From NCBI GenBank assembly GCA_012517355.1, contig JAAYVD010000114.1, positions 62,001-126,000 on the forward strand: 64,000 nt of DNA. The letters run 5' to 3'. The notes under the pieces are model-generated. The model was not told the DNA's origin. It saw only the letters and a program-made list of their open reading frames with translations, and ran no database searches. Source of the stretch: Candidatus Rifleibacteriota bacterium (lineage in GTDB: Bacteria; Muiribacteriota; Ozemobacteria; Ozemobacterales; Ozemobacteraceae). The stretch's first letter is position 1. Every line of letters starts with the position of its first letter. Positions 30,902 to 60,686 of this stretch are shown here, in pieces. Both the position numbers and the translations under genes were made by a program.

Positions 30902-31903
30902 ATGCCGCAATTGCGCAAGGATCCCGTCACCAAGCGGTGGGTGATCACGATCCACGAGAACCCCAAGGGCCCCCGGGATTTCCCCGTCCTCCCCACCGAC
31001 ACCAACGGCCACAACTGCCCGTTCTGCCCCGGCCACGAAAGCCAGACCCCCCAGGAAGTGATGTCCTACCGCGAACCCAACACCCTTCCCAACCAGCCCG
31101 GGTGGCGGGTCCGGGTCGTCCCCAACCGGTATCCCGCCCTCCAGATCGAGGGCGACCTCGACCGGACCGGCATCGGCCTGTACGACATGATGAACGGGAT
31201 CGGCGCGCACGAGGTCATCATCGAAACCCCTGACCACCACGGCGGCTTCGACACCATGAGCCGCGACCAGGTGCTCAAGATCGTCACCTCCTACGCCGAC
31301 CGATACCGCGACCTGAAGCGCGACCGCCGGTTCCGGTACATCCTGATCTTCAAAAACAGCGGGGCCGCCGCCGGGGCCAGCCTCGACCACCCGCATTCCC
31401 AGCTGATCGCGACCCCCATCATCCCCAAGCGGGTCATGGAGGAGGTCGAGGGGGCCAAGCAGTATTTCTACTACAAGGAACGGTGCGTGTTCTGCGACGT
31501 GATCCGCCAGGAACTGAGTTCGGGCTCGCGCATCATCCACGAGAACGAGAACTTCGTGGCCTTCGCCCCCTTCGCCTCGCGCTTCCCCTTCGAAACCTGG
31601 ATCGCCCCCAAAGACCACAAGGCCTCCTTCGGCGACATCGAGGAAGGGGAACTGGAAACCTTCGCCAGCGCCCTGCACGGCACCCTTCGCAAGCTGATCA
31701 AGACCCTGAACTCTCCCCCGTTCAATTTCATCATCCACACCTCGCCCTGCGACGAGCTCTGCACCGACTACTACCACTGGCACCTGGAGATCATGCCGCG
31801 CCTGACCAAGGTGGCCGGGTTCGAGTGGGGGTCCGGGTTCTACGTGAACCCCGTCCCCCCAGAGGAGGCCGCCCGTCACCTCCTGCAGTCGGGCGTCGCC
31901 TGA
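30902..31903 (+). CDS. galT: GalT-like hexose-1-phosphate nucleotidyltransferase, HPHSQ type
   Basis: A 333-residue member of the histidine-triad GalT family. A zinc pair CPFCPGHE (Cys39, Cys42) is followed by GAHEVIIETPDHH and the catalytic HPHSQ (His163, His165, Gln167). The glutamine is the residue that in Escherichia coli GalT supports the nucleotidylated histidine. A second Cys pair (CVFCDVIRQE, about 195) and the C-terminal YHWHLEIMPRL motif complete the fold. The reaction would be transfer of a nucleotidyl group between a sugar-1-phosphate and a nucleotide sugar (UDP-glucose/galactose-1-P in the Leloir pathway). No galK or galE is adjacent. It is followed after 30 bases by a paralogue with a different triad. 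Confidence 0.85.
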   Translation: MPQLRKDPVTKRWVITIHENPKGPRDFPVLPTDTNGHNCPFCPGHESQTPQEVMSYREPNTLPNQPGWRVRVVPNRYPALQIEGDLDRTGIGLYDMMNGIGAHEVIIETPDHHGGFDTMSRDQVLKIVTSYADRYRDLKRDRRFRYILIFKNSGAAAGASLDHPHSQLIATPIIPKRVMEEVEGAKQYFYYKERCVFCDVIRQELSSGSRIIHENENFVAFAPFASRFPFETWIAPKDHKASFGDIEEGELETFASALHGTLRKLIKTLNSPPFNFIIHTSPCDELCTDYYHWHLEIMPRLTKVAGFEWGSGFYVNPVPPEEAARHLLQSGVA

Positions 31904-31933
31904 GCGATCCCATCCGAATCCGACGAGGAAGAC

Positions 31934-32935
31934 ATGCCCCAACTCCGCAAGGACCCGGTCCTCAAACAGTGGGTGATCATTTCCCCCGAGCGGGGCAAGC
32001 GGCCCCAGGATTTCAAACCCGACCGGGGCGAACCGGCGGGCGAGGAGGGCCCCTGCCCTTTCTGTGAGGGCAACGAGAAGGCGACTCCCAACGAGACGAT
32101 GGCCTTCCGCAAGACCGGAACCCTGGCCGACCAGCCCGGCTGGTGGGTGCGCGTGGTGCCCGACCGCACGCCCATCCTCACTCCGACCGGAGATGCCGGC
32201 CGCGAGGGCATCGGCATGTTCGACGCCATGAACTCGATCGGGGTCCACGAGGTGGTGATCGAAACCCCCAGCCACCGCCAGAACCTGCTGACGGTGAACC
32301 TCGACCAGGTGCGCGAGGTGATCTGGGCCTACAAGCAGCGGCTCCTCGAGATCAAGAAGAACCCGCGATTCAAGCATTTCCTCGTGGTCAAGAACAGCGG
32401 CCGGGGCGTCTCCAGCTTTTCCCACAGCCATTCCCACATCGTGGCCACCCCGATCATCCCCAAGCGCATCGAAGAGGAGATCGACGGGGCACGGGAGTAT
32501 TTCCATTATCACGACCGCTGCATCTACTGCGACATCATCCGCCAGGAGATCCAGGAACCGAGCCGGATCGTCTTCCAGGACAACCTGTTCATGGTCTTCT
32601 GCCCCTTCGCCTCGCGGTTCCCCTTCGAGATGCTGATCATCCCGAAGGTCCACCAGCCCTTCTTCGAAACCCTCGACAACGACCACGTCCATGGGTTCGC
32701 CAACGCCCTCCAGGCGTCGTTGAAGCGCATGAACACGCTGCTGCCCGAGGTCCCCTACAATTTCATCCTCCACACCTCGCCCTGTTCCGACTCCTATCGC
32801 GACTTCTTCCACTGGCACGTCGAGATCATCCCCAAACTCACCAAGGTGGCCGGGTTCGAGTGGGGCTCCGGGTTCTACATCAACCCGACCCCCCCCGAAG
32901 ACGCCGCCCAGATGCTGCGGGAGGTTCCCGCCTGA
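31934..32935 (+). CDS. GalT-like nucleotidyltransferase/phosphorylase, HSHSH type
   Basis: A 333-residue paralogue of the preceding gene, clearly alignable along its full length: MPQLRKDPV start, CPFCEGNE zinc pair at Cys41/Cys44, SIGVHEVVIETPSHRQ, CIYCDIIRQE and the FHWHVEIIPKLTKVAGFEWGSGFY end. The catalytic loop reads HSHSH (His164, His166, His168) instead of HPHxQ. Loss of the glutamine makes it resemble HIT hydrolases and phosphorylases, so it may act on another nucleotide sugar or as a nucleotide-sugar phosphorylase. This is inference; a divergent GalT remains possible. It is in the same operon as the HPHSQ copy. Confidence 0.8.
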   Translation: MPQLRKDPVLKQWVIISPERGKRPQDFKPDRGEPAGEEGPCPFCEGNEKATPNETMAFRKTGTLADQPGWWVRVVPDRTPILTPTGDAGREGIGMFDAMNSIGVHEVVIETPSHRQNLLTVNLDQVREVIWAYKQRLLEIKKNPRFKHFLVVKNSGRGVSSFSHSHSHIVATPIIPKRIEEEIDGAREYFHYHDRCIYCDIIRQEIQEPSRIVFQDNLFMVFCPFASRFPFEMLIIPKVHQPFFETLDNDHVHGFANALQASLKRMNTLLPEVPYNFILHTSPCSDSYRDFFHWHVEIIPKLTKVAGFEWGSGFYINPTPPEDAAQMLREVPA

Positions 32936-32940
32936 CCCCG

Positions 32941-32998
32941 CCGGGCGGACGGTCCGCCCGGACATGTAACATAACCCAGGGATCCGGTAAGATCCCTG
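32941..32998 (+). promoter_or_regulatory. two hairpins between the GalT-like and SH3b genes
   Basis: The first (32941-32961) pairs CCGGGCGGAC with GTCCGCCCGG and begins 6 bases past the GalT stop, looking like a terminator without a T-run. The second (32977-32998) pairs CAGGGATC with GATCCCTG around CGGTAA and ends just before the GAGGAGG ribosome site of the SH3b gene, so it may be a 5' cap, attenuator or stabiliser. Confidence 0.5.
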
Positions 32999-33015: not shown

Positions 33016-33405
33016 ATGAAACCCCGCACTCTGGCCCTTCTCCTGTTGGGCATCCTCACCCTGGCCGCCCCGCTCCTGGCGGCGAAAATCCCCTCCCGCG
33101 GCACGGTGAACTGCGACGCCCTGAACGTGCGCACCGGGCCCGGGATGAGCTATTCCATCGTCGGCCTCATCCACAACGGGGACGAGGTCACCATCACCGA
33201 CGTCAGCGGCAGCTGGTATCAGGTCAACGTCGGCAGTCACCAGGGAAAATGGGTCTATTCCGGCTACATCACCGTCACGGCCTACGGCGAGCAGAACGAG
33301 GACGAGGCGGCCAAAAAACCCCACGCCACCCTGTACGGCACCGATCCGGCCCGCCCCGAAGCCAATGCCGTGGATGACGAGCCCCTGACCAGAAACGAAT
33401 ACTGA
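33016..33405 (+). CDS. secreted SH3b domain protein
   Basis: A 129-residue exported protein. The signal peptide spans about 1-22 (LALLLLGILTLAAPLLA-AK). One bacterial SH3 domain follows (about 28-92): VNCDALNVRTGPGMSYSIVGLIHNGDEVTI, then GSWYQVNV and GKWVYSGYI, all diagnostic. SH3b modules usually bind peptidoglycan or peptides. An acidic, disordered tail closes the protein. A strong GAGGAGG site precedes the ATG. It is followed after 17 bases by the pilin-like operon. Confidence 0.88.
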   Translation: MKPRTLALLLLGILTLAAPLLAAKIPSRGTVNCDALNVRTGPGMSYSIVGLIHNGDEVTITDVSGSWYQVNVGSHQGKWVYSGYITVTAYGEQNEDEAAKKPHATLYGTDPARPEANAVDDEPLTRNEY

Positions 33406-33422
33406 GCCCTTCCCCGCCCCGC

Positions 33423-35531
33423 ATGCCCCCCTTCCAGACCACCGCGGCCCCGGCTTCCCGCCGGGGTTCCGCCATCCTGGTCGTGGGAGGGGTCCTGGTC
33501 GCCCTGCTCCTGCTGGCCGGCTGGTTCTTCCAGTTCATGCTCATGCAGAGCCGGTTGACCCAACGGCAGGGACAGCAACGCATCAGCACCTCCCTCGCCT
33601 TCAGCCTGGCCGTCCTCGCCATCCAGAAGATCCAGAAGGAGATCCTGCAGGATCCCACTTCCGAGCTGGTGAAGTATCTTCGCAAGCCGTGCGGTTCCCT
33701 CGGCGACCTCGGGCCAAGCGCCGCCACCCGCCTCAAGTTCGAGACCGGCGGCACCGACCTCTCCCCCGTCCTGGAAGACCTCGTCGAACCCCTTTCCGCC
33801 CTCGGGGCCTTCAGCTACGAAGTCCACTATTCCTGCCAGGGCAGCGATTTCTCACGACTGCCCGGCACCCCCTACACCCGGGAGAAAATCGGCTGCATCC
33901 ACCTCCATATCGCCACGATGTTCAAGAAGACCGGCGCCAACGAACTGCGCGAGGAATTCCATTTCGTGGCCGAGGCCAAGGTGACCGCCGCGATCGTCCC
34001 CCTGCTCTCGAAGTTCACCGTCTATGTCGAGGATGCCCGCGAGTCCAGCGACATCCGCAACGCCGACGCCTCGTTCCGCCTCAATACCGTCGGCACCAAC
34101 CCCAACGGCGGCCCCCTCAGCCCGCCCCAGGGCCATCCCTGGGTTCTGAAGAACGGCCCGGAAGGCGTCCCTTCCGACCTCCAGATGGACGAAATGGTCA
34201 AGGGCCCCCGCGGCCTGATCTACCTCGGCGGCGGCCGCCTGTATCTCAACCTGGCCCGGGCCTGGAACATCCCCGGCGACTATGCGGAAGGGTTCCACCT
34301 GTTGAAAATGGGAAGAGGCGACGGCCTCTACACCATCAAGAAAATCCAGGAAACCTACCTCATGAACTGGGACCAGGGAGTCACCGCCGACCATTCCACG
34401 GGCGGGGCCAAGGACTGGCACGACCTCATCGCCACCTCCAAGTGGGCTCCCTACCTCGAAAAGAGTTCGGCCTTCCGCCTGTATGGGGTCGGTGACCGCC
34501 CCACCCCCACCCTCGTGCTCGGCGAGGTCTTCCGGTCCTACATCCGCGCCCGGGCCATCAAGAACATGAAGTCGCCACCCGACTTCCGGCCCATCTTCCT
34601 CAAACACCTCCCCCCCGGTGACCTGACCGGCTGGCGTCGGTTCATCGACCCGGACAACACCGACGAGGACGACAGCATGGGGATTTTCAACCGCGACCAC
34701 CTCCCGTTGCTCATCGGCCGCTCCCTCACCGATTCCCAGGACGATCTCAACCTCTACAACGATGTCCTGGCCAGCAACTGGGACCGCAGCCCCTACAACC
34801 GCACCCTGGCCATGATCCAGACCACCAACCTGAACCCCAAACCCTGGACCACCCTGCCTCCCGACCCCCTCACCGACCTCATGGTGACCAACCCCACCCC
34901 CGCCAAGCAGCATGCCATTCCCAACCTGCTCAAACCCCTGACCGACGCCAACGACCTCAAGTCCATGAAAGACCTCTTGAAACCCCTCATGGTCCCGGGC
35001 ACCCGCACCGCCTGGGTGGTCGATCCCACCGCCGAGGGCCGCCCCCTCCTCCAATGCCTCCAGGCCCGCGGCCTGTATGACAAGGACAAACGCACCCTGA
35101 ACCTGAACGGGTGGGTCTACGTCGAGGGGGAGACCGAACTGAAACTCGACCAGAAGATCACCGTCCTGTCCAACGGCGGCATCGTCCTGAAAAAGGGGGG
35201 CATCATCCTCGGCCACCAGATCGAGGCCTCGCCCAACAAAGCCCACCTCCATCTGGTCACCCACGACGGGGACATCTCGGTCGAAACCAACCAGACCATC
35301 GAAGCCTCCCTGGTCGCCCACAAAGGGAAGGTGAAGATCGGCGGGGGCGGCCGGCCCAAGATCCGCGGATCCGTGGCGATGAGCCGGTTCGACCTGGGCA
35401 GCACCACCCACGGGGCCGACATCACCTACGCCCAGTCGCTCGCCGCCCTGCCGGGCGCTTCCACCGAAGCCGACTCCGAAGCCGACCTGCTGACCTTCAG
35501 CCTGAACCCCACCCCCCTGTTCCTGAAATGA
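33423..35531 (+). CDS. PilX/GspK-like large membrane-anchored pilus-associated protein
   Basis: A 702-residue protein starting MPPFQTTAAPASRRGSAILVVGGVLVALLLL. The RRG-SAILVV-hydrophobic start resembles PilX-type minor pilins (class with RRGxxLLV), with one N-terminal membrane helix (about 16-40). The rest is extracytoplasmic and unassigned: beta-rich segments with Asp/Gly/Asn repeats and a C-terminal region of short strands (INGWVYVEGETEL, GGIVLKKGGIIL, GHQIEAS) that looks like a small polymer-forming beta-helix. The downstream genes are pilins and are coupled to it by ATGA. No ribosome site precedes its ATG, which may mean translation coupling to the SH3b gene. It could be the tip or adhesin component; this is inference. 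Confidence 0.55.
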   Translation: MPPFQTTAAPASRRGSAILVVGGVLVALLLLAGWFFQFMLMQSRLTQRQGQQRISTSLAFSLAVLAIQKIQKEILQDPTSELVKYLRKPCGSLGDLGPSAATRLKFETGGTDLSPVLEDLVEPLSALGAFSYEVHYSCQGSDFSRLPGTPYTREKIGCIHLHIATMFKKTGANELREEFHFVAEAKVTAAIVPLLSKFTVYVEDARESSDIRNADASFRLNTVGTNPNGGPLSPPQGHPWVLKNGPEGVPSDLQMDEMVKGPRGLIYLGGGRLYLNLARAWNIPGDYAEGFHLLKMGRGDGLYTIKKIQETYLMNWDQGVTADHSTGGAKDWHDLIATSKWAPYLEKSSAFRLYGVGDRPTPTLVLGEVFRSYIRARAIKNMKSPPDFRPIFLKHLPPGDLTGWRRFIDPDNTDEDDSMGIFNRDHLPLLIGRSLTDSQDDLNLYNDVLASNWDRSPYNRTLAMIQTTNLNPKPWTTLPPDPLTDLMVTNPTPAKQHAIPNLLKPLTDANDLKSMKDLLKPLMVPGTRTAWVVDPTAEGRPLLQCLQARGLYDKDKRTLNLNGWVYVEGETELKLDQKITVLSNGGIVLKKGGIILGHQIEASPNKAHLHLVTHDGDISVETNQTIEASLVAHKGKVKIGGGGRPKIRGSVAMSRFDLGSTTHGADITYAQSLAALPGASTEADSEADLLTFSLNPTPLFLK

Positions 35532-36064
35532 CCATGCCAGCCGACCAGCGCCGACCGACACGATGCCGCAAGGGCTTCCCCTTGCCCGCCACCGATGGCG
35601 AGGCAAAACGCCCGTTACGCGCACCGCCAAGGGGCCACCACCGCCCCGCCTTCTCTCTCGTGGAGGTCATGATCGCCGTCCTGATCATCGGGGCCACCAT
35701 GACCCCCCTCTTCTACATGTTCACGCGAAGCTCCTCCGGAACGGTCCAGAGCCGCGACGAGGTGATCGCCTACAGCTATGCCGGCGAGATTCTCGAGATC
35801 TGCCAGGTCCGGGGGTTCGACGACCCACTGCTGGCTCCCGGCAACGACAAACCGGTCACCGGTCTGGCCCTGCGGACCGCCGACGGCGCCACCGTCCCCC
35901 TGACCGCCGACCCCCGGTTCACCCGCAAGCTGCACGTGAAGGAACCGGCCATCGGCGGCACCTGGCCATTCAAGTACAAGGTGCTGAACGTGGAAGTCAG
36001 CTGGAAATCCGGGGAACAAACCCGGACGGTCCAGGTGACCGGGATGCTGACGAAGGTGAAATGA
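35528..36064 (+). CDS. prepilin-type N-terminal cleavage protein (pseudopilin)
   Basis: A 178-residue pseudopilin. A long basic leader (about 40 residues) ends in the prepilin peptidase motif PA-FSLVEVMIAVLIIGATMTPLFYMF, with Glu at +5 and the usual hydrophobic helix. A globular region of about 110 residues, beta-rich, follows (LRTADGATVPLTADP, YKVLNVEVSWKSGEQTRTVQVTG). It is coupled by ATGA to the upstream PilX-like gene and to the next gene. The role would be a minor pilin or pseudopilin of a type IV pilus or type II-like secretion system, whose ATPases are not in the window. Confidence 0.85.
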   Translation: MTMPADQRRPTRCRKGFPLPATDGEAKRPLRAPPRGHHRPAFSLVEVMIAVLIIGATMTPLFYMFTRSSSGTVQSRDEVIAYSYAGEILEICQVRGFDDPLLAPGNDKPVTGLALRTADGATVPLTADPRFTRKLHVKEPAIGGTWPFKYKVLNVEVSWKSGEQTRTVQVTGMLTKVK

Positions 36065-36642
36065 TGGGAAAAGCCCGCGCCATGACCCTCGTCGAGATCG
36101 CCGTCAGCGTGCTGCTGGGCTCCATCGTCATGCTGGCCGCCAGCCGGATGCTGTCCTCGGGCATGAAGACCTCCACCAAAGGGGCGGCCCACCTGACCAA
36201 CGTCCAGGCCGTCTCGGTGCTGATGGCCCAGATCGAGGAGGATGTCCAGCGCGCGGTGGACGTCAGCTTCCTCACCCCGGGCACCAAGGAACCCTCCATG
36301 AAGATCGTCATCCTGGAGGACCGGGGGGGCAAGCCGGCCAGCGCCACCGTCATCTACCAGGTGGTCCACGAAAAGCCCGGCGACAAGACCCAGGTGGTCA
36401 AGCGGACCCACACGGACCATGCCGGCAGCGGCACCACCGAAGGACACCCGTTCTGCCGGGGCCTCCAGATCGTCGACTGCTCCTTCACCCGGCTCGATCT
36501 CGAAGGCGACAAGGTCGGTTTCCAGGTGGAAATCAAGGTCGCCACGCCCCCGAACGGCACCGAGGAGTTCGAGATGCAGCGCTTCATCCTCTGCCGCAAC
36601 CACGCCAGCAACAGCCTGGCCCTCGGGTGGCAGAGCCCATGA
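36061..36642 (+). CDS. pseudopilin (prepilin-type N-terminus)
   Basis: A 193-residue protein with a short leader MMGKARA-MTLVEIAVSVLLGSIVMLAASRML: a TLVE prepilin cleavage motif with Glu at +5 and a hydrophobic helix. The globular part includes a conserved-looking QAVSVLMAQIEEDVQRAVDVS helix, as in GspJ/PilW-type minor pilins, and a Cys pair (PFCRGLQIVDCSF). The ATG overlaps the preceding stop (ATGA), and its stop overlaps the ECF sigma start. GspJ/PilW-like is a reasonable class; no more can be claimed. Confidence 0.82.
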   Translation: MMGKARAMTLVEIAVSVLLGSIVMLAASRMLSSGMKTSTKGAAHLTNVQAVSVLMAQIEEDVQRAVDVSFLTPGTKEPSMKIVILEDRGGKPASATVIYQVVHEKPGDKTQVVKRTHTDHAGSGTTEGHPFCRGLQIVDCSFTRLDLEGDKVGFQVEIKVATPPNGTEEFEMQRFILCRNHASNSLALGWQSP

Positions 36643-37331
36643 GCCGGAACGGCCCGGGGTCTCCCCAGCCGCCCAGGGAGGCGGGGCGCCACCGGTCCGA
36701 CGGCGGGACCAGGGAACCACCTCAGGCTACGGGTGGCGGCAGTCCCGCCGCGGGCGATCCTTCCCCCGAAGACCTCGCCCGGCAGGTGATGGCGGGCCAG
36801 ACCGGGGCCTTCGCCGAAATCATCCGCCGCTACCAGGCCAAGATCTTCGGCATGGCCCTGTTCTACACACGCAGCGCGGCGGCCGCCGAGGACGTGGTCC
36901 AGGACGTGTTCGTCGCGACCTACCAGAGCCTGGGCCGGTACGACCCCTCCCGCTCCTTCACCAACTGGATCCTGCAGATCGCCACCAACCATTGTTGCAA
37001 GGCGATCCGGCGGCCGGCCGGCGCCAAAAAGCCGCTCGACGAACCTTCTCCCTTCGTCGATCCCCTGGAGACCCAGATCGACCGGGAACGCCAGGCCATG
37101 GTCCTGGACGGGCTGAAACAACTGCCCGAAGACCAGCGGCTGGTGATCTGGCTCTTCTATTTCTTCGAACGGAGCTACGTCCAGATCTCCGAAATCCTCG
37201 AAATTCCCCTGCACCTGGTGAAGATCCGGCTGTTCCGTGGGAAGAAAGCCCTGGGCACGATCCTCCGGCAACACCCGGGGCTCGATCTTCCCGATCGCAA
37301 GGACGGGGTACGGGAAAACGGATGTGTGTAA
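36639..37331 (+). CDS. ECF sigma factor (pilin operon)
   Basis: A 230-residue ECF sigma-70 family factor with a 45-residue Pro/Gly-rich N-terminal extension. Region 2 (about 50-115) has AFAEIIRRYQAKIFGMALFYTRSAAAAEDVVQDVFVATYQSLGRYDPSRSFTNWILQIATN. Region 4 (about 155-215) has LDGLKQLPEDQRLVIWLFYFFERSYVQISEIL. The HTH recognition part (EIPLHLVKIRLFRGKKAL) departs from the usual 'GTVKSRLxRAR' and keeps only its spacing. The ATG overlaps the pseudopilin stop, so it is part of the pilin operon. Its anti-sigma gene follows after 37 bases. Confidence 0.92.
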   Translation: MSRNGPGSPQPPREAGRHRSDGGTREPPQATGGGSPAAGDPSPEDLARQVMAGQTGAFAEIIRRYQAKIFGMALFYTRSAAAAEDVVQDVFVATYQSLGRYDPSRSFTNWILQIATNHCCKAIRRPAGAKKPLDEPSPFVDPLETQIDRERQAMVLDGLKQLPEDQRLVIWLFYFFERSYVQISEILEIPLHLVKIRLFRGKKALGTILRQHPGLDLPDRKDGVRENGCV

Positions 37332-37368
37332 CATTTCGCCACGCCCCGGGGAAGATACGGGTGAACCT

Positions 37369-38487
37369 ATGAGCCTGCACGACAACGAACAGAGACTCCA
37401 GGACTACCTCGACGGCACCCTTCCCGCCCCGGAACGGACCGACCTCGAGGCCCACTGCCGTTCGTGCAGCGAGTGCCGCACCGCCCTCGAGGAGGCCCGC
37501 GCCGCCCACCAGGCCTTGTCCGGCCTGACGTTGAAGGCCGGCCCTGACCTCACCGCCCCCATCATGGACCGGCTGTCCCGCCTGCCGGCCCCCGGCCGGC
37601 CCGGCCCGGGCCCCCTGCGCTGGGCGCCGGTGCTGATCGGCGGGGCCATCGCCCTGGCGGTGGGCCTGATGCTGGCCTTCCCCCCGGCGCCCGGTCCGGC
37701 CCGCAACCCGACGGAACAAGCCGGGCCCGCCGTAACGCCGCCCCCGGAACCGGCTTCAGCCCCGGTGGTGACGCCCCTCGTTCCCGCGCCGGTCGCCCCG
37801 CCACCCGTGTTCCTGGCCAAGGCCGCCGGCTCCTGGACCCCCGCCGCCCTCCAACCCGGCGCCCCGGTGCCGGCCGGCACCCGGATGATGGCCGGCCCCA
37901 CCGGAACGCTCGAGTTCTCCTTCCAGTCGCGCGGCAGTCCACACGCCCCCGAGACCCATGCCGCCGTCCTGCTGCTACCGGAAACCTCGGCCGTCATCGA
38001 GCCCACCGGCCTCCGCCTGGAGCAGGGCATGGCCTGCCTGCGCATCGGCCGGCCCGGCAAGCCCTCCGCCCCCTTCACCATCCGCCACGGGAGCGGGGAA
38101 TCGGTCACCGGCCAGGGCCGGATCGTCCTGACCGTCGGTCCCCAGGGCATGGAGGCCTCGGTCTTCGAAGGCCACCTGGAACTTTCCCCCGGCAGCGGTA
38201 GGGTCCCGGTGAAGGTCGAAGCCCTCGAGACCGTGCGCGTGACCCCCGGCGAAGTGAAGGTCGATCCGATGGCCGCCCAGGCGGCGTTCCTCTGGCGGCC
38301 GAACCTCCCGGGCGATCCGCCCACCGTCGCTCCCTCCGGTGCCGGCACCCCGGCCGCCGGGCTTGCCTCGCTGACCGAACCTGCTCCCGCCTCCCTTTCC
38401 GAAGATGCGGGCCCGGGGACCGCCTCCCCCGATGCTTCATCGGCGGGGGGCCTGGACGACACCCTCTTCCGGCACCAACCGAACTGA
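37369..38487 (+). CDS. zinc-finger anti-sigma factor with FecR-like periplasmic domain
   Basis: A 372-residue membrane anti-sigma factor. The N-terminal ZAS domain has the His29-x3-Cys33-x2-Cys36 motif (HCRSCSEC). One membrane helix (about 85-104) and a Pro/Ala-rich linker precede a FecR-like beta domain (about 150-310) with AVLLLPETSAVIEPTGLRLEQGMACLRIG and GESVTGQGRIVLTVGPQG. A disordered tail closes it. It should hold the preceding ECF sigma at the membrane until a periplasmic cue releases it. The pair is the last part of the pilin operon and converges on a second ECF/anti-sigma pair. Confidence 0.85.
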   Translation: MSLHDNEQRLQDYLDGTLPAPERTDLEAHCRSCSECRTALEEARAAHQALSGLTLKAGPDLTAPIMDRLSRLPAPGRPGPGPLRWAPVLIGGAIALAVGLMLAFPPAPGPARNPTEQAGPAVTPPPEPASAPVVTPLVPAPVAPPPVFLAKAAGSWTPAALQPGAPVPAGTRMMAGPTGTLEFSFQSRGSPHAPETHAAVLLLPETSAVIEPTGLRLEQGMACLRIGRPGKPSAPFTIRHGSGESVTGQGRIVLTVGPQGMEASVFEGHLELSPGSGRVPVKVEALETVRVTPGEVKVDPMAAQAAFLWRPNLPGDPPTVAPSGAGTPAAGLASLTEPAPASLSEDAGPGTASPDASSAGGLDDTLFRHQPN

Positions 38488-38550: not shown

Positions 38551-39135
38551 CTAGCCTTCCCCGGCCATCTGGGCCTGGCGGTTCTGGCGGCTGAGCAGGG
38601 CCTCGCGCAGCTGGTTCCGGGCATGGAAGACGCGGGATTTCACCGTCCCCTCGGGAATGCCCAGCGCCTCGGCCACCTTCTGGAGCGGCATGTCCAGCAG
38701 GTAGCGCATGACCAGCACCTCCCGGAACTCGTCTTCCAGATGGTGCAGGGCTTCCTGCACGATCCGGACATCGTCCCGTTCGAGCAATTCCGCCTCGGGG
38801 CCGGCCACCACATCGCGCACCAGGTCGCCGATGATGTTCGGGTCGATGGGGGCGGGGGCCTGGCGGCGGTGCAGGCTGATGGCGAGATGCCGGGCCATGG
38901 TGAGCAGCCAGGCTTTCAGGGGGCGGGCCGGATCGTATTGGGGGAGCTTGCGATAGAGGGTGAGGAAGGTCTCCTGGGTGACGTCCTCGGCGTCGCCGCG
39001 GTGCCCCGTGAAGTGGAAGAGGAACTTGAAGACGAGTCCCTGGTAGCGCTGGACGAGTACCTCGAAGGCGGCCACCCGCCCCTGGAGGGTCTCGGCCACC
39101 AGATCCCGATCGGAAGTCTCGCCTTGCTGCTGCAT
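38551..39135 (-). CDS. ECF sigma factor (second pair)
   Basis: A 194-residue ECF sigma. Region 2 reads AFEVLVQRYQGLVFKFLFHFTGHRGDAEDVTQETFLTLYRKLPQYDPARPLKAWLLTMARHLA. Region 4 reads LHHLEDEFREVLVMRYLLDMPLQKVAEALGIPEGTVKSRVFHARNQLREAL, fully canonical. On this strand it lies after, not before, its anti-sigma gene (18-base gap), a reversal of the usual order. It converges with the anti-sigma of the pilin operon; 63 bases separate the two stops. Confidence 0.95.
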   Translation of the reverse strand: MQQQGETSDRDLVAETLQGRVAAFEVLVQRYQGLVFKFLFHFTGHRGDAEDVTQETFLTLYRKLPQYDPARPLKAWLLTMARHLAISLHRRQAPAPIDPNIIGDLVRDVVAGPEAELLERDDVRIVQEALHHLEDEFREVLVMRYLLDMPLQKVAEALGIPEGTVKSRVFHARNQLREALLSRQNRQAQMAGEG

Positions 39136-39153
39136 CTGGGGGGGGTCAGCCGG

Positions 39154-40101
39154 TCAGCGGCCGGGGTTGTCCTCCTCGAGGGGTGAGCTGGTCGAACCGG
39201 TGGGAGGGGCGACCGAGGAGCCGGACCCCACCTCCGGAGCGTCCAAAGGAGCGACCGAGGAACCGGACCCCACCTCTGGAAATTCCATAGGGTCGGCCAG
39301 GAACCCGGTGGGGCCGACGGTGAGCCGTTCGCCGACCCCCACCTCGCGGCTGCCGGCGGCCTGCACCACCCGGACCCGACCTTCGCTGACTGCGACCTGG
39401 AGATCGGCGTCTGAGAGATCGAGCGTGAACCGGGTGCCCACGACGGCGACCTCGGCGAAGGGCGTCCCGATGGTGAAGGGCGTCAACGGAGAGGTCTTTT
39501 CGACCTGCACCTCGGCGTGGCCGGCCAGCAGCCGGAAGCCGGCAGCGTGGGGGGCGAATTCCCCATCGGTGATCTCGGCCCTGGCCCTCCCCGGGAGGGT
39601 CAGGACCACGCGGCTGCCGGCCCCGGGCTTGACGGAATGGCCCCGCGGCAGGGCGATCGCCGCGGGATGGGCCGCCCAGGGGGCGGGCACCTGGGCGGGA
39701 TCGAACGCCAGCAGGGCCATTTCCCAGACGGGTTCCGCGGCGGGCGGGGTGGGTCGCAGCACGGTTTCCCGGGCCAGGATGGCCAGGATGAGGACGCAGC
39801 AGGCGAGCGCCAGCGACTTTTTGACCAGGGTGTCGGGGAACAGGATCTGCATGAGGCGCTCGAAGGGGGAATCGCTCCCTTCGCGGGGAACGGGTTCGCG
39901 GGCGATGGCGGCCATGATCCGGGGGGTCAGGTCGACGGTGGGGGTGGCCCGGTCGATGACGGTCAGGCTGCCGCCCACCCGGCGGTCGGCCCGGAGCAGG
40001 GCCTGGCAGTCCGGGCAGGTCTTGGCGTGCTCGAGCAGAGGCCCGGGAATGGGGGGCGAGTCGAGCGATTCGAGGTGGTTTCGAAATTCCTGGCAGTTCA
40101 T
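39154..40101 (-). CDS. zinc-finger anti-sigma factor with FecR-like domain (second pair)
   Basis: A 315-residue protein whose ZAS motif His25-x3-Cys29-x2-Cys32 (LLEHAKTCPDCQAL) is followed by a membrane helix (about 94-110). A periplasmic FecR-like domain follows: GAGSRVVLTLPGRARAEITDGEFAPHAAGFRLLAGHAEVQVEK ... FTIGTPFAEVAVVGTRFTLDLS, a textbook FecR/iron-dicitrate-sensor block with the VVGTxF motif. The C-terminal tail contains a 14-residue repeat. ATG 40099-40101 follows GGAGGG. It is encoded upstream of its sigma factor. Confidence 0.88.
   Translation of the reverse strand: MNCQEFRNHLESLDSPPIPGPLLEHAKTCPDCQALLRADRRVGGSLTVIDRATPTVDLTPRIMAAIAREPVPREGSDSPFERLMQILFPDTLVKKSLALACCVLILAILARETVLRPTPPAAEPVWEMALLAFDPAQVPAPWAAHPAAIALPRGHSVKPGAGSRVVLTLPGRARAEITDGEFAPHAAGFRLLAGHAEVQVEKTSPLTPFTIGTPFAEVAVVGTRFTLDLSDADLQVAVSEGRVRVVQAAGSREVGVGERLTVGPTGFLADPMEFPEVGSGSSVAPLDAPEVGSGSSVAPPTGSTSSPLEEDNPGR
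39206..39289. repeat. two tandem 42-bp units within the anti-sigma C-terminus
   Basis: Two copies of a 42-base unit (39206-39247 and 39248-39289), differing at few positions, encode the duplicated EVGSGSSVAP peptide near the C-terminus of the second anti-sigma factor. Confidence 0.8.
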
Positions 40102-41888: not shown

Positions 41889-43475
41889 ATGAAGCACCTT
41901 TGGCGAACCATGGCCCTGGCGGTTCTCCTGGCGGTCGTGGCGGTCCTGGGGACGGGTCCGAACGGACACGGGCAGACGCTGGAGGACATGCTCGACAACC
42001 AGGGCGACGAGACGCGGGTCATCGCCCTGCCCGGGGCGGCCAGCCAGACCGTCGCCGCCCGCTGGGAGGAGCTGTGGAAGGCCCTCACGCCCAGGGAACA
42101 GGAGTTCATCCGCCGCGGGCTGCTGCCCAAGACCTACGCCATCCTCAAGGATCTGAAGGCGCGGGGCGGGCCGACGGGCGCGCAGCAGGCCAAGGACCGG
42201 GCCCGCCGGGGAAAGCCGGGTCAGCCCTCGTTTGCCGATTCCTACGGCGATCCTGACGTGATGCTGGCCTGGGCCGAAAACAACCAGGGGAACGCCCGCC
42301 TGTGCGGGTTCGTGAAATCCATCAAAAAAGGCGACATCATCCTGGCGGGGCCGGGGGCCACGGAACGCCGGGACAAGGATACCATCTGCTTCCTGACCCG
42401 CGGCCCCTACCACCACTCCCTGCTCTGCGTCAGCGAGGGCCCCCCGCCCGAATTCATCGACGCCGTGGGGAAAGGCGTGGTGCGGACCCAGTGGACCTAT
42501 TTCTGGGGTGGCGCCAATTACCGGATCGTCCGGCCGACCGCCTCCCTTCCCCCCGACCAGGCAAAAAAAGCCGTCGAGGCCGCGGTCGGATACGCCATCG
42601 GCCAGCTCGGCAAGCCCTACGACCTCGCGTTCACCGACGCCGACGGCGACCGTTCCTTCTATTGCAGCGAACTGGCCCTGAAAGCCTACCGGGACGGCGC
42701 CGGGCTGACCAACCTCCTGCCCGCCAAGTCCCCCGAGCGCGACCAGCTGGTCGTCAGCCTCTGGGCGGTCATCGACGGCCTCGGGCCGACCGACCGGCAC
42801 GCGATGATGGACGGCCTGCTGCACACCGTCAAGAGGGTCTCCGAAAGCAAACCTCCCGACTGGGGGACCCTGGACGCCTATGTCATCGACGAGGTCCTGC
42901 CGAAATGCTCCGCGGCCGCGGGGTTGCTGGCCACCCCCGCCAACCGGCGCGCGGCGAAGGAGGTGGTGAAGGCGATCCGCGAGGGCCGCGCATTCACCCG
43001 CTTCCAGGCGGCCGACGCCGAATACCAGAAGGCGGAAGCGGCCGGCCGGTTCACCGACCACTGGTACACCTTCGGCACCGGGAAGGCCCGGCAGGCCGGG
43101 GCCCAGGCCAAGCGGCTGTGGGCCCTCGGCCAGGATCTCTGGGCGGTCAAGCGTTCGACCGGTCTGTCGCTGCCCTCGGCCTTCGGCCTGGTCTGCCGGG
43201 TCTTCCTTCCCTTCTACCGGAACCTCGGCACCTTCGCCGGAGCCGCGAACCAGGCGGGCTCGCAGGGCCTGATCGCCCTGCCGGCGGGCGTGAGGACCGC
43301 GCTCGCCGCCACCGAGGCGCTGGCCACGGTGCGCGAGAAGACGGCCTGGATCCCGCTCCTCGGCAGCGTCACCCAGCTTCTGCCGGGAAAGGCCCCGCCG
43401 CGGGTGCAGGGCGATTTCACAAGCCCGACCGATCTGTCGCAGCTCAGCGAGTGGCACCAGGACTACGAACCCTGA
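41889..43475 (+). CDS. secreted YiiX/NlpC-P60-like papain-fold protein
   Basis: A 528-residue exported protein. A signal peptide or N-terminal membrane helix spans about 6-24. The circularly permuted NlpC/P60 (YiiX/YebB) module lies at about 145-275: KKGDIILAGPG, the catalytic histidine in RGPYHHSLLCVS (His175/176), and FYCSELALKAY with Cys259. In permuted family members His precedes Cys, as here. The order and spacing fit a cysteine peptidase or amidase. The C-terminal 250 residues are helical and unassigned. The ATG is preceded by GGGAGGA; a longer open frame upstream crosses the 13-bp repeats and is not used. Confidence 0.75.
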   Translation: MKHLWRTMALAVLLAVVAVLGTGPNGHGQTLEDMLDNQGDETRVIALPGAASQTVAARWEELWKALTPREQEFIRRGLLPKTYAILKDLKARGGPTGAQQAKDRARRGKPGQPSFADSYGDPDVMLAWAENNQGNARLCGFVKSIKKGDIILAGPGATERRDKDTICFLTRGPYHHSLLCVSEGPPPEFIDAVGKGVVRTQWTYFWGGANYRIVRPTASLPPDQAKKAVEAAVGYAIGQLGKPYDLAFTDADGDRSFYCSELALKAYRDGAGLTNLLPAKSPERDQLVVSLWAVIDGLGPTDRHAMMDGLLHTVKRVSESKPPDWGTLDAYVIDEVLPKCSAAAGLLATPANRRAAKEVVKAIREGRAFTRFQAADAEYQKAEAAGRFTDHWYTFGTGKARQAGAQAKRLWALGQDLWAVKRSTGLSLPSAFGLVCRVFLPFYRNLGTFAGAANQAGSQGLIALPAGVRTALAATEALATVREKTAWIPLLGSVTQLLPGKAPPRVQGDFTSPTDLSQLSEWHQDYEP

Positions 43476-59580: not shown

Positions 59581-60138
59581 TTACTTCGACAACCGTTCAC
59601 CCGGAAAAAGTTCCGGCGGCAGAAAAAAAGTTTCTTCGGGGGTGTCAAACGCCAGGGAACCGCGGATGACGCGCTCGGCATCAGGGTCTCCGGCCATCAA
59701 GTGCACGACCCCTTCGACGGCGGCCGGGGAGGGTCGGCCGGCCGTGTCGGCCTGCCGCCAGAACAGGAACCCCGCCACCAGCAGGGCGACCACCGCCACC
59801 CCCAGGCCAAAGACCAGCCAGGGATGCCGGCCCGCCCACCCGCGCACCGGAGCGGCCGGGGCGGCGGAGCCGCCGGGGGGGACCCCCGCCCGGTCGGGGT
59901 CGACCGCCTGCGGGTCGAGGCCGAGTTCCTGCACCACCCCCGCCCAGACGCGGGGCGGCGGGGCCGGGTGTTCGAGCGCCTCGAACGGCTTGACAAGCGT
60001 GGTGGGGGCCTTTTCCATCAGGTCCCGGCAGGACGGGCAGCCCGCGACGTGGGCGGCCAGCCCCTGCCGGTCGGCATCGGACAGTTCACCGTCGAGGTAA
60101 TCGGTGAGGATGAGGTCGCGCCAGCGTTCGCAGGTCAT
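59581..60138 (-). CDS. zinc-finger anti-sigma factor (third pair)
   Basis: A 185-residue membrane anti-sigma. The ZAS motif His30-x3-Cys34-x2-Cys37 (AAHVAGCPSCRDL) opens it. One membrane helix (about 107-127, LVFGLGVAVVALLVAGFLFW) and a short periplasmic tail with hydrophobic/acidic residues (TFFLPPELFPGERLSK) follow. The ATG overlaps the sigma stop (ATGA). A second ECF-like promoter lies inside its last codons. It should sequester the sigma factor encoded just before it. Confidence 0.88.
   Translation of the reverse strand: MTCERWRDLILTDYLDGELSDADRQGLAAHVAGCPSCRDLMEKAPTTLVKPFEALEHPAPPPRVWAGVVQELGLDPQAVDPDRAGVPPGGSAAPAAPVRGWAGRHPWLVFGLGVAVVALLVAGFLFWRQADTAGRPSPAAVEGVVHLMAGDPDAERVIRGSLAFDTPEETFFLPPELFPGERLSK
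59586..59614 (-). promoter_or_regulatory. candidate ECF promoter P2 for the Spy-like/EF-hand genes
   Basis: On the minus strand GGAACTTTTTCCGGG (59600-59614) leads after an AAC-N19-GTC spacing to TGTCGAA (59585-59591). It matches the candidate at the sigma gene almost base for base and places transcription about 10 bases before the Spy-like AGGAG site. Confidence 0.6.
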
Positions 60139-60686
60139 TTCGGTTCCCCCTGTTTCCAGGCAAGGAGCGTCTCCCTGCCTCGCTTCAACCGGGACCGGAC
60201 GGTGTTGATGTTGATTTCGAGGACCTCGGCGATCTCCTGGTAGGAAAGGCCCTCGATGGTGCGCAGCACGATGCAGACACGCTGTTCCTGGGGCAGCAGG
60301 TCGAGCAGGGCGTTGGCCTCCTCCTCGGCCTGCAGGCGGGCGGCCGGGTCGGGGCCGGCCTCGCGCAGGATGGCGGTCTTCTCGTAGACCAGGCGGCGGG
60401 CGTCCTCCCGCAGGTGGCTGCGGCGGGCGTTGATCGCGGTGTTGACGGCGATGCGGTAGAGCCAGGTCTTCAGGCTGGACTGGAACCCGAACTGCGAGAA
60501 CTTGCGGAACAGGTTGACGAACACCTCCTGGGTGATCTCCTCGGCGTCGTGCCAGACGCGGGAGATGCGGAGCGCCACGCTGAACACCAGGGCGGCGAAG
60601 GCGTGGTAGATGGCGGCGAAGGCGCGGTGGTCGCCCCGCCTGGCCCGCTCGATGGTCGGTTCGTCGATCTTGTTCATCCCACCCAT
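60135..60686 (-). CDS. ECF sigma factor (third pair)
   Basis: A 183-residue ECF sigma. Region 2 reads AFAAIYHAFAALVFSVALRISRVWHDAEEITQEVFVNLFRKFSQFGFQSSLKTWLYRIAVNTA. Region 4 reads LDLLPQEQRVCIVLRTIEGLSYQEIAEVLEININTVRSRLKRGRETLLAWK. Both are canonical. The start could be ATG 60684-60686 or the internal ATG 60675-60677 (MNKIDEPT); a predicted promoter whose -10 element is at 60690 would give a nearly leaderless message, favouring the internal one. The stop overlaps the anti-sigma start. Confidence 0.93.
   Translation of the reverse strand: MGGMNKIDEPTIERARRGDHRAFAAIYHAFAALVFSVALRISRVWHDAEEITQEVFVNLFRKFSQFGFQSSLKTWLYRIAVNTAINARRSHLREDARRLVYEKTAILREAGPDPAARLQAEEEANALLDLLPQEQRVCIVLRTIEGLSYQEIAEVLEININTVRSRLKRGRETLLAWKQGEPK

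Follow-up and report, generated by a model that had tools for sequence, protein, structure and literature searches.

The operon and its conservation

The 64-kb window analyzed here (bases 62001-126000 of the 181-kb contig C10, within the 7.1-Mb genome G000 of a Candidatus Rifleibacteriota bacterium) contains an operon, SH3-A-B-C-D-E, in which genes for a secreted SH3 protein and three pseudopilin-like proteins (A, B and C) precede those for an extracytoplasmic function (ECF) sigma factor (D) and a membrane anti-sigma factor (E). The C terminus of E resembles a short tag at the N termini of secreted enzymes whose genes share the operon's promoter motif; such an inhibitor resembling cargo suggests that the cell senses its own secretion traffic. 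Coordinates are those of the window unless a locus is named; G labels denote genomes (G000 being the window's own), L labels loci, and C-number labels contigs. The nearest named relative in the locus search was Candidatus Ozemobacter sibiricus BY5, and the other loci came mostly from Candidatus Ozemobacteraceae or Riflebacteria. The operon spans positions 33016-38487 on the plus strand and comprises the following genes, listed with their constant neighbors:

33016-33405, plus strand: secreted bacterial SH3 protein of 129 aa, first gene of the operon (Pfam SH3_3, 1.5e-12; position kept in relatives)
33423-35531, plus strand: A, GspK/PilX-like large pseudopilin of 702 aa (predicted long N-terminal helix and C-terminal beta-solenoid)
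35528-36064, plus strand: B, GspI/PilV-like prepilin-type protein, AFSLVEVMIAV (Pfam N_methyl, 2.1e-4; weak PilV/ComGE matches)
36061-36642, plus strand: C, GspJ/PilW-like prepilin-type protein, AMTLVEIAVSV (NCBIfam PRK10557, 1.3e-5; weak gspJ match)
36639-37331, plus strand: D, ECF sigma factor (Sigma70_r2, 4.9e-16; Sigma70_r4_2, 2.3e-12; TIGR02937 sigma70-ECF, 9.3e-24)
37369-38487, plus strand: E, membrane anti-sigma factor of 372 aa (zf-HC2, one membrane helix, FecR/PupR-like domain)
30902-32935, plus strand: two GalT-like genes, constant syntenic neighbors before the operon (membership is not claimed)

An earlier note on this DNA had placed the pilin-like genes, the sigma factor and the anti-sigma factor in one operon, which is borne out, with the SH3 gene, ending 17 nt before A, added as its first member. 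The three successive ATGA overlaps that it described are exact in the window at A/B, B/C and C/D, but the coupling does not extend to E, which is separated from D by a 37-nt gap and probably has its own promoter. In relatives these junctions are not kept as ATGA, the spacing being mostly tight. D carries only regions 2 and 4 of sigma70, as ECF sigma factors do. Both small subunits, B and C, have the prepilin N-terminal motif, the Pfam N_methyl match of C lying below the cut-off, and the N terminus of A (RRGSAILVVGGVLVALLL) is without Glu5. The large protein had been called PilX-like, a name that its N terminus, its place before two pseudopilins and the 62-residue N-terminal helix of its AlphaFold model favor, but that is unproven: A has no Pfam or NCBIfam match, and searching PDB sequences with A or C was unproductive. 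A name based on fold was dropped, the model having no structural match in the PDB at E <= 0.001. As a separate observation, similar dispersed DNA segments occur at the start of B (about 35555-35645) and upstream of an A-like gene on C178 (L078, about 1590-1686), and the N-terminal extension of B, absent in most relatives, may derive from a repeat.

The gene order that the earlier note suggested looking for in related genomes was found in seven Ozemobacteraceae genomes, as GalT-GalT-SH3-A-B-C-D-E in G000, G001, G002, G004, G007 and G014 and as SH3-A-B-C-D-E in G008; the G010 contig breaks off within C. This order is kept at 40-73% sigma identity, so that the linkage of the sigma pair to pilin-like genes, whose absence in relatives would have spoken against the earlier note, is conserved. 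In G005 and G012, the D-E pair is relocated, with a different pilin set on one side and a PilX-pilin-pilin set on the other. A second FecR-like protein stands behind E in these two genomes (L076, 7730-9004; L077, 8046-8885), with a similar tail (SPQELLEKMNIEQPKEE, SPRDQLEHLTIEHPKED). Since relatives such as G009, G006 and G005 (C149) have A-B or A-B-C sets without an adjoining sigma gene, the triplet can also exist without sigma; the SH3 gene is present in G009 and G006.

Within G000, triplets or pilin sets adjoin a sigma gene or a sigma/anti-sigma pair on C134, C125, C114, C71, C61, C106, C131, C178, C34, C72 and C96, and probably on C139. Chance adjacency in a genome so rich in pilins (at least 150 N_methyl matches to the prepilin motif) was considered and ruled out by conservation and by an enrichment test, in which 14 of 31 sigma genes lay less than 5 kb from a pilin-like gene (12.4% expected; P = 6e-6).

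The earlier note had seen no pilus ATPase or prepilin peptidase nearby, and none is encoded on the whole 181-kb contig. Elsewhere, G000 has 32 T2SSE-type ATPase matches over the cut-off and only 2 prepilin peptidases, so that ATPase, peptidase and secretin are available in the genome, away from the locus, a secretin gene adjoining the C134 triplet. At that locus (L059, 970-10404), the secretin gene and a tagged-looking transglutaminase (SPLSILQGHTVKP) lie beside an A-B-C-sigma set without an evident anti-sigma factor. On C107 (L096, 392-3138), a sigma/anti-sigma pair lies directly 5' of a 505-aa open reading frame with a PilC-type start that overlaps a T2SSE (pilus ATPase) match.

Two promoters and a regulon of secreted enzymes

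A bipartite promoter motif, GTAACWT-N13/14-GGKAAGAT, precedes both SH3 and E:

32965-32993, plus strand: candidate sigma-D promoter 1, TGTAACAT-N13-GGTAAGAT, upstream of SH3-A-B-C-D (kept in all seven relatives of this clade that have SH3-A-B-C(-D))
37327-37356, plus strand: candidate sigma-D promoter 2, TGTAACAT-N14-GGGAAGAT, before E and overlapping the D stop codon (same place in six relatives)

The strict form, TGTAACAT-N13/14-GGKAAGAT, occurs twice in the window, against 0.00 expected from window shuffles. With small variations, the motif stands at both positions in L098, L100, L101, L102, L103 and L104 and at the first in L099, while neither of the two loci without D that were checked, L105 and L107, has it before SH3. 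It is therefore likely that E is also transcribed from a promoter of its own. The fixed ratio of anti-sigma factor to pilins that the earlier note assumed is therefore contradicted in the relatives examined, whereas the feedback on transcription that it proposed gains an identifiable promoter motif at the sigma factor's own operon.

Across the 7.1 Mb of G000, the strict motif has seven matches, against none for a reversed control. Besides the two in the window, five distal sites (on C11, C34, C39, C69 and C98) each lie 13-79 nt 5' of one gene for a secreted protein. The products are a C39-like peptidase, a CHAP-like enzyme, a protein with two SH3 domains and a C39 peptidase, one with an SH3 domain and an M23 peptidase, and a metallophosphoesterase. 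In G001, G002, G004 and G010, all further strict sites precede similar secreted proteins, including an SLT transglycosylase; with G000 counted, 18 of 18 strict sites lie before the operon, before E or before a gene for a tagged secreted protein. By contrast, none of the motif sites read in genomes without the operon precedes a tagged gene. The AT-richer G014 and G007 each have one site before a tagged or tag-like protein, among chance matches, and the control pattern matches there too. The motif was not found at other pilus genes, where the earlier note had suggested searching for the sigma promoter; its distal targets are secreted enzymes, mostly cell wall hydrolases.

A tag shared by the regulon enzymes and the tail of E

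All five distal G000 products carry the tag [LM]xxxLxxH[DEI]P right after the signal peptide (LDETLSQHDP, LQGVLDTHEP, LRATLDSHDP, MDATLNQHIP and LGEALRDHDP), signal peptides being recognized here simply as hydrophobic N termini. Conversely, a blind DNA search of G000 for the tag gave 23 sites, of which exactly five lie at a mature N terminus: four already known and one on C33. The C33 product (tag MDDVLNDHDP), in which LysM-like and NlpC/P60-like regions were read by eye, is preceded by GTAACCC-N14-GGTAAACT. The promoter thus leads to the tag in five of five cases and the tag, searched blindly, to the promoter in five of five, one of them (C33) with a relaxed motif. Read from sequence, a regulon of tagged enzymes with a shared promoter is strongly supported. 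Elsewhere in the window (41910-43475, plus strand), a secreted protein with a Peptidase_C92 match just below the cut-off has a mature start, QTLEDMLDNQGDE, that resembles the tag family.

The same motif closes the anti-sigma factor, whose predicted parts are as follows:

37390-37479, plus strand: E residues 8-37, zinc-finger anti-sigma domain zf-HC2 (Pfam, 2.7e-7; profile match to RsiW)
37807-38268, plus strand: E residues about 147-300, periplasmic domain resembling FecR/PupR (4m0n and 6ovk by profile; Foldseek, 4m0h 3.2e-6 and 6ovk 3.4e-6)
38452-38481, plus strand: E residues 362-371, C-terminal cargo-like tag LDDTLFRHQP behind a disordered linker (motif common to the N termini of the regulon enzymes)

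E combines an N-terminal HxxxCxxC domain with one membrane helix (residues 86-103), as zinc-finger anti-sigma (ZAS) proteins do; the ZAS motif is degraded in the E proteins of G005 and G012. Its periplasmic domain resembles PupR and the Parabacteroides anti-sigma factor BDI_1681 by profile and by the fold of the model, which upholds the FecR-like domain of the earlier note. Pfam FecR was called on five of nine E homologs, E itself not being among them. The model of E shows a disordered linker and, at the tail, a short helix.

The C terminus of E reads LDDTLFRHQPN, and the strict tag motif occurs only twice in 359 other proteins (115,471 aa), one occurrence being E itself. Seven orthologs retain the tail motif (among them LDETLLHHQP twice, MLGILDDHQP, MMNILNGHQP, LRDCLIEHQP and, in G004, PLSTLLEHQP), while the linkers before it vary freely and are otherwise unalignable. 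With a matrix built solely from the substrate tags, the scores are 13.8-18.4 bits for five of six tails (E, 13.8) and 6.1 for the sixth; among 382 other C termini, one scores as high as E and another falls short by no more than 0.4 bit. In G004, the tail (DPLSTLLEHQP) shows a variant that recurs in its own target (DPLETLQDHDV).

The earlier note had proposed that the FecR-like domain of E directly senses the assembly of the A-B-C appendage, in which case the tail would be incidental. Conserved cotranscription, the nature of the domain and the position of B and C immediately before the sigma gene all fit such a sensor. The distal regulon, however, consists of tagged secreted enzymes rather than pilins, the tail is better conserved than the linker, and the separate promoter of E removes the fixed ratio; we regard assembly sensing as improbable, the least favored of the explanations considered here. 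Since the distal targets are secreted enzymes that share their tag with the tail of E, cargo or secretion status is more likely to be the sensed variable.

Paralogous modules and other sigma pairs

Comparable pairings of tail and tag occur at other loci of G000. On C125 (L061, 4437-10159), a paralogous A-B-C-D set, with a sigma factor 39% identical to D, is accompanied by a convergent anti-sigma gene, whose product has a tail (TPKELLRTIPP) similar to the start (ANPKELLKPRAP) of the C39-like peptidase encoded next to it. In the sigma/anti-sigma/pilin module on C61 (L085, 6273-12987), SSPLDDLNKPSS is the C terminus of the anti-sigma factor and ADPVDDLMNSSS the start of a secreted protein encoded at that locus, which gives the tail/tag pair PLDDLN / PVDDLM; here the sigma operon and the secreted gene both carry TTTTCAACC-N15-CCGTWA, and these two are the only matches in G000. 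C178 shows a similar but weaker resemblance. For the C178, C61 and C125 tails, the best match of 177 secreted proteins was the protein of the same locus, whereas in the remaining modules tested the best match among the 177 was not local, and a tail/tag rule for all anti-sigma factors was dropped as a finding. It is possible, though doubtful, that cargo mimicry is general in Riflebacteria, many tip complexes each having their own tag and sigma pair, with the anti-sigma factor copying the tag and transcription tracking channel occupancy.

These modules also bear on a plainer account, that D and E are an ordinary ECF pair whose place in a pilin operon is fortuitous and which controls wall enzymes in response to envelope stress, the likeness of tail and tag being due to chance or to a convergent amphipathic helix. 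ECF control of wall hydrolases is common, and the motif is short: a single tail/tag match at this level occurs in about 1 in 200-400 C termini and is thus moderately improbable, which also counts against our own reading. The retention of the tail in seven orthologs, the variant common to the G004 tail and its target, and the recurrence of different tail/tag pairs at C125 and at C61, there with a shared promoter confined to two matches in the genome, make this account improbable, if marginally less so than assembly sensing.

Two further sigma pairs lie in the window. At 38551-40101 (minus strand) is a second ECF sigma factor, F, with a FecR-type anti-sigma factor, G, encoded before it; the C terminus of G (SSPLEEDNPGR) and a motif upstream of G, CTTTGAAC-N16-GCGTA, are conserved in three species, and this candidate promoter has two further sites, without a convincing target. 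At 59581-60677 (minus strand), a third ECF-like sigma gene is followed by a zinc-finger anti-sigma-like gene.

A proposed secretion-coupled sigma switch

What the sequence establishes, namely the operon and its conservation, the promoter, the tagged regulon of six dispersed genes and the tail motif, is best explained by a self-contained, secretion-coupled sigma switch, in which the tail of E mimics cargo and reports free docking sites, probably on an A-B-C tip complex. We give this reading a probability of roughly 0.55. In such a switch, A, B and C would form a tip complex of the GspIJK/PilVWX type on a pseudopilus or pilus that is driven by components from other loci, and the tag would be the signal by which client enzymes dock there. 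The tail of E would compete with cargo for one docking site. When sites are free of cargo, the tail would engage and E would be inactivated, either by being pulled or by being exposed to proteolysis as in FecR-type signaling, so that D could direct the synthesis of more cargo, tip complex and E. When sites are filled by cargo, E would be free to sequester D, and the promoter before E would provide negative feedback.

Several points weigh against this reading. D is assigned to the motif by co-occurrence and position, the extracellular export of the tagged enzymes is putative, and so is the binding of the tag to A, B, C or SH3. The assignment of B and C to GspI and GspJ is weak, and the AlphaFold model of A has no PDB fold match below E = 0.32. 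In G005 and G012, D-E adjoin a different pilin set, and the tails (SPLELLNDWSIKQP, SPLDVLNEWSVPKS) are just loosely similar. Covariation of tail and tag across species is weak, 46 of 720 permutations reaching the observed value, which is only suggestive. The direction of the feedback is conjectural: since contact with the transducer protects the anti-sigma factor in known FecR-type signaling (PMC11637429), the opposite response is also possible.

The genome G009 helps in weighing what might read the tag. There, where no D was found, an SH3 enzyme bearing the tag FNETLSNHDA is encoded, together with a propeller-like partner, directly 5' of SH3-A-B-C in the same operon, so that the tag is linked to the pseudopilins irrespective of the sigma factor. 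This speaks against the idea that the enzymes and the tail of E compete for a factor other than a pseudopilin, such as a periplasmic protease or a wall or outer-membrane anchor, with A-B-C merely another product of the regulon; so does the recurrence of the sigma/pilin-triplet linkage across many paralogous modules. FecR-type anti-sigma factors are nevertheless controlled by proteolysis (PMC11637429), and the tagged enzymes are mostly wall hydrolases, several with SH3 domains, as a wall anchor would suit. Such a reader seems unlikely to us, though a stronger contender than the ordinary ECF pair. Either way, the tagged regulon and the cargo-like tail make the locus more interesting than the earlier note had it.

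Comparison with known systems

We found no precedent in the open-access literature, whether for an ECF pair linked to pilins, for pilins of Riflebacteria or for anti-sigma factors that mimic cargo. The closest regulatory relatives are FecIR, PupIR and FoxIR, which likewise combine an ECF sigma factor with a one-pass anti-sigma factor bearing an extracytoplasmic FecR/PupR-like domain and control surface machinery by autoregulation (PMC7186176, PMC11637429). Here, however, the partner genes encode pseudopilins, the N terminus of the anti-sigma factor is an RsiW-type zinc finger, the regulon consists of tagged enzymes, and the tail carries a cargo tag. Because neither the operon nor the regulon genes that were read include a TonB-dependent transducer, the locus is not a member of the cell-surface signaling systems. 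If our reading is true, it would connect a FecR-type sensor with a pseudopilin complex in place of a TonB receptor.

Two further sigma circuits offer parallels. In the sigma-E envelope stress response (RseA/DegS), as would be the case here, an anti-sigma pathway takes its signal from peptides at the ends of exported proteins, but there a protease reads the porin peptide, whereas here the anti-sigma factor itself carries the peptide. FlgM/FliA couples the control of a flagellar sigma factor to export, FlgM itself being exported. The status of a secretion machinery would similarly be read via a substrate-like anti-sigma factor, which in the case of E is membrane anchored and FecR-like.

As to the pseudopilins, the GspI-J-K/XcpV-W-X tip complex and the minor pilins PilV-W-X (PMC6211770) share with A-B-C the arrangement of one large and two small subunits, their N termini and a large subunit without Glu5. 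A differs in being about twice the usual size, with a predicted solenoid domain; its model has the pilin-like N-terminal helix, yet A has no fold match and no profile match. Other differences are the many orphan triplets, the absence of core machinery beside this locus and the linked sigma pair.

Cargo recognition by type II secretion-like machines is a long-standing open question. Folded enzymes are recognized in the periplasm, and no common linear signal has been reported (PMC7949064), whereas the enzymes described here, which would likewise be recognized in folded form, share a linear tag on unrelated folds. With this tag, the promoter that defines its bearers and an anti-sigma factor that carries it, cargo recognition and its regulation become directly testable, and the tag, should it prove to be such a signal, would be the first of its kind for secretion driven by pseudopilins.

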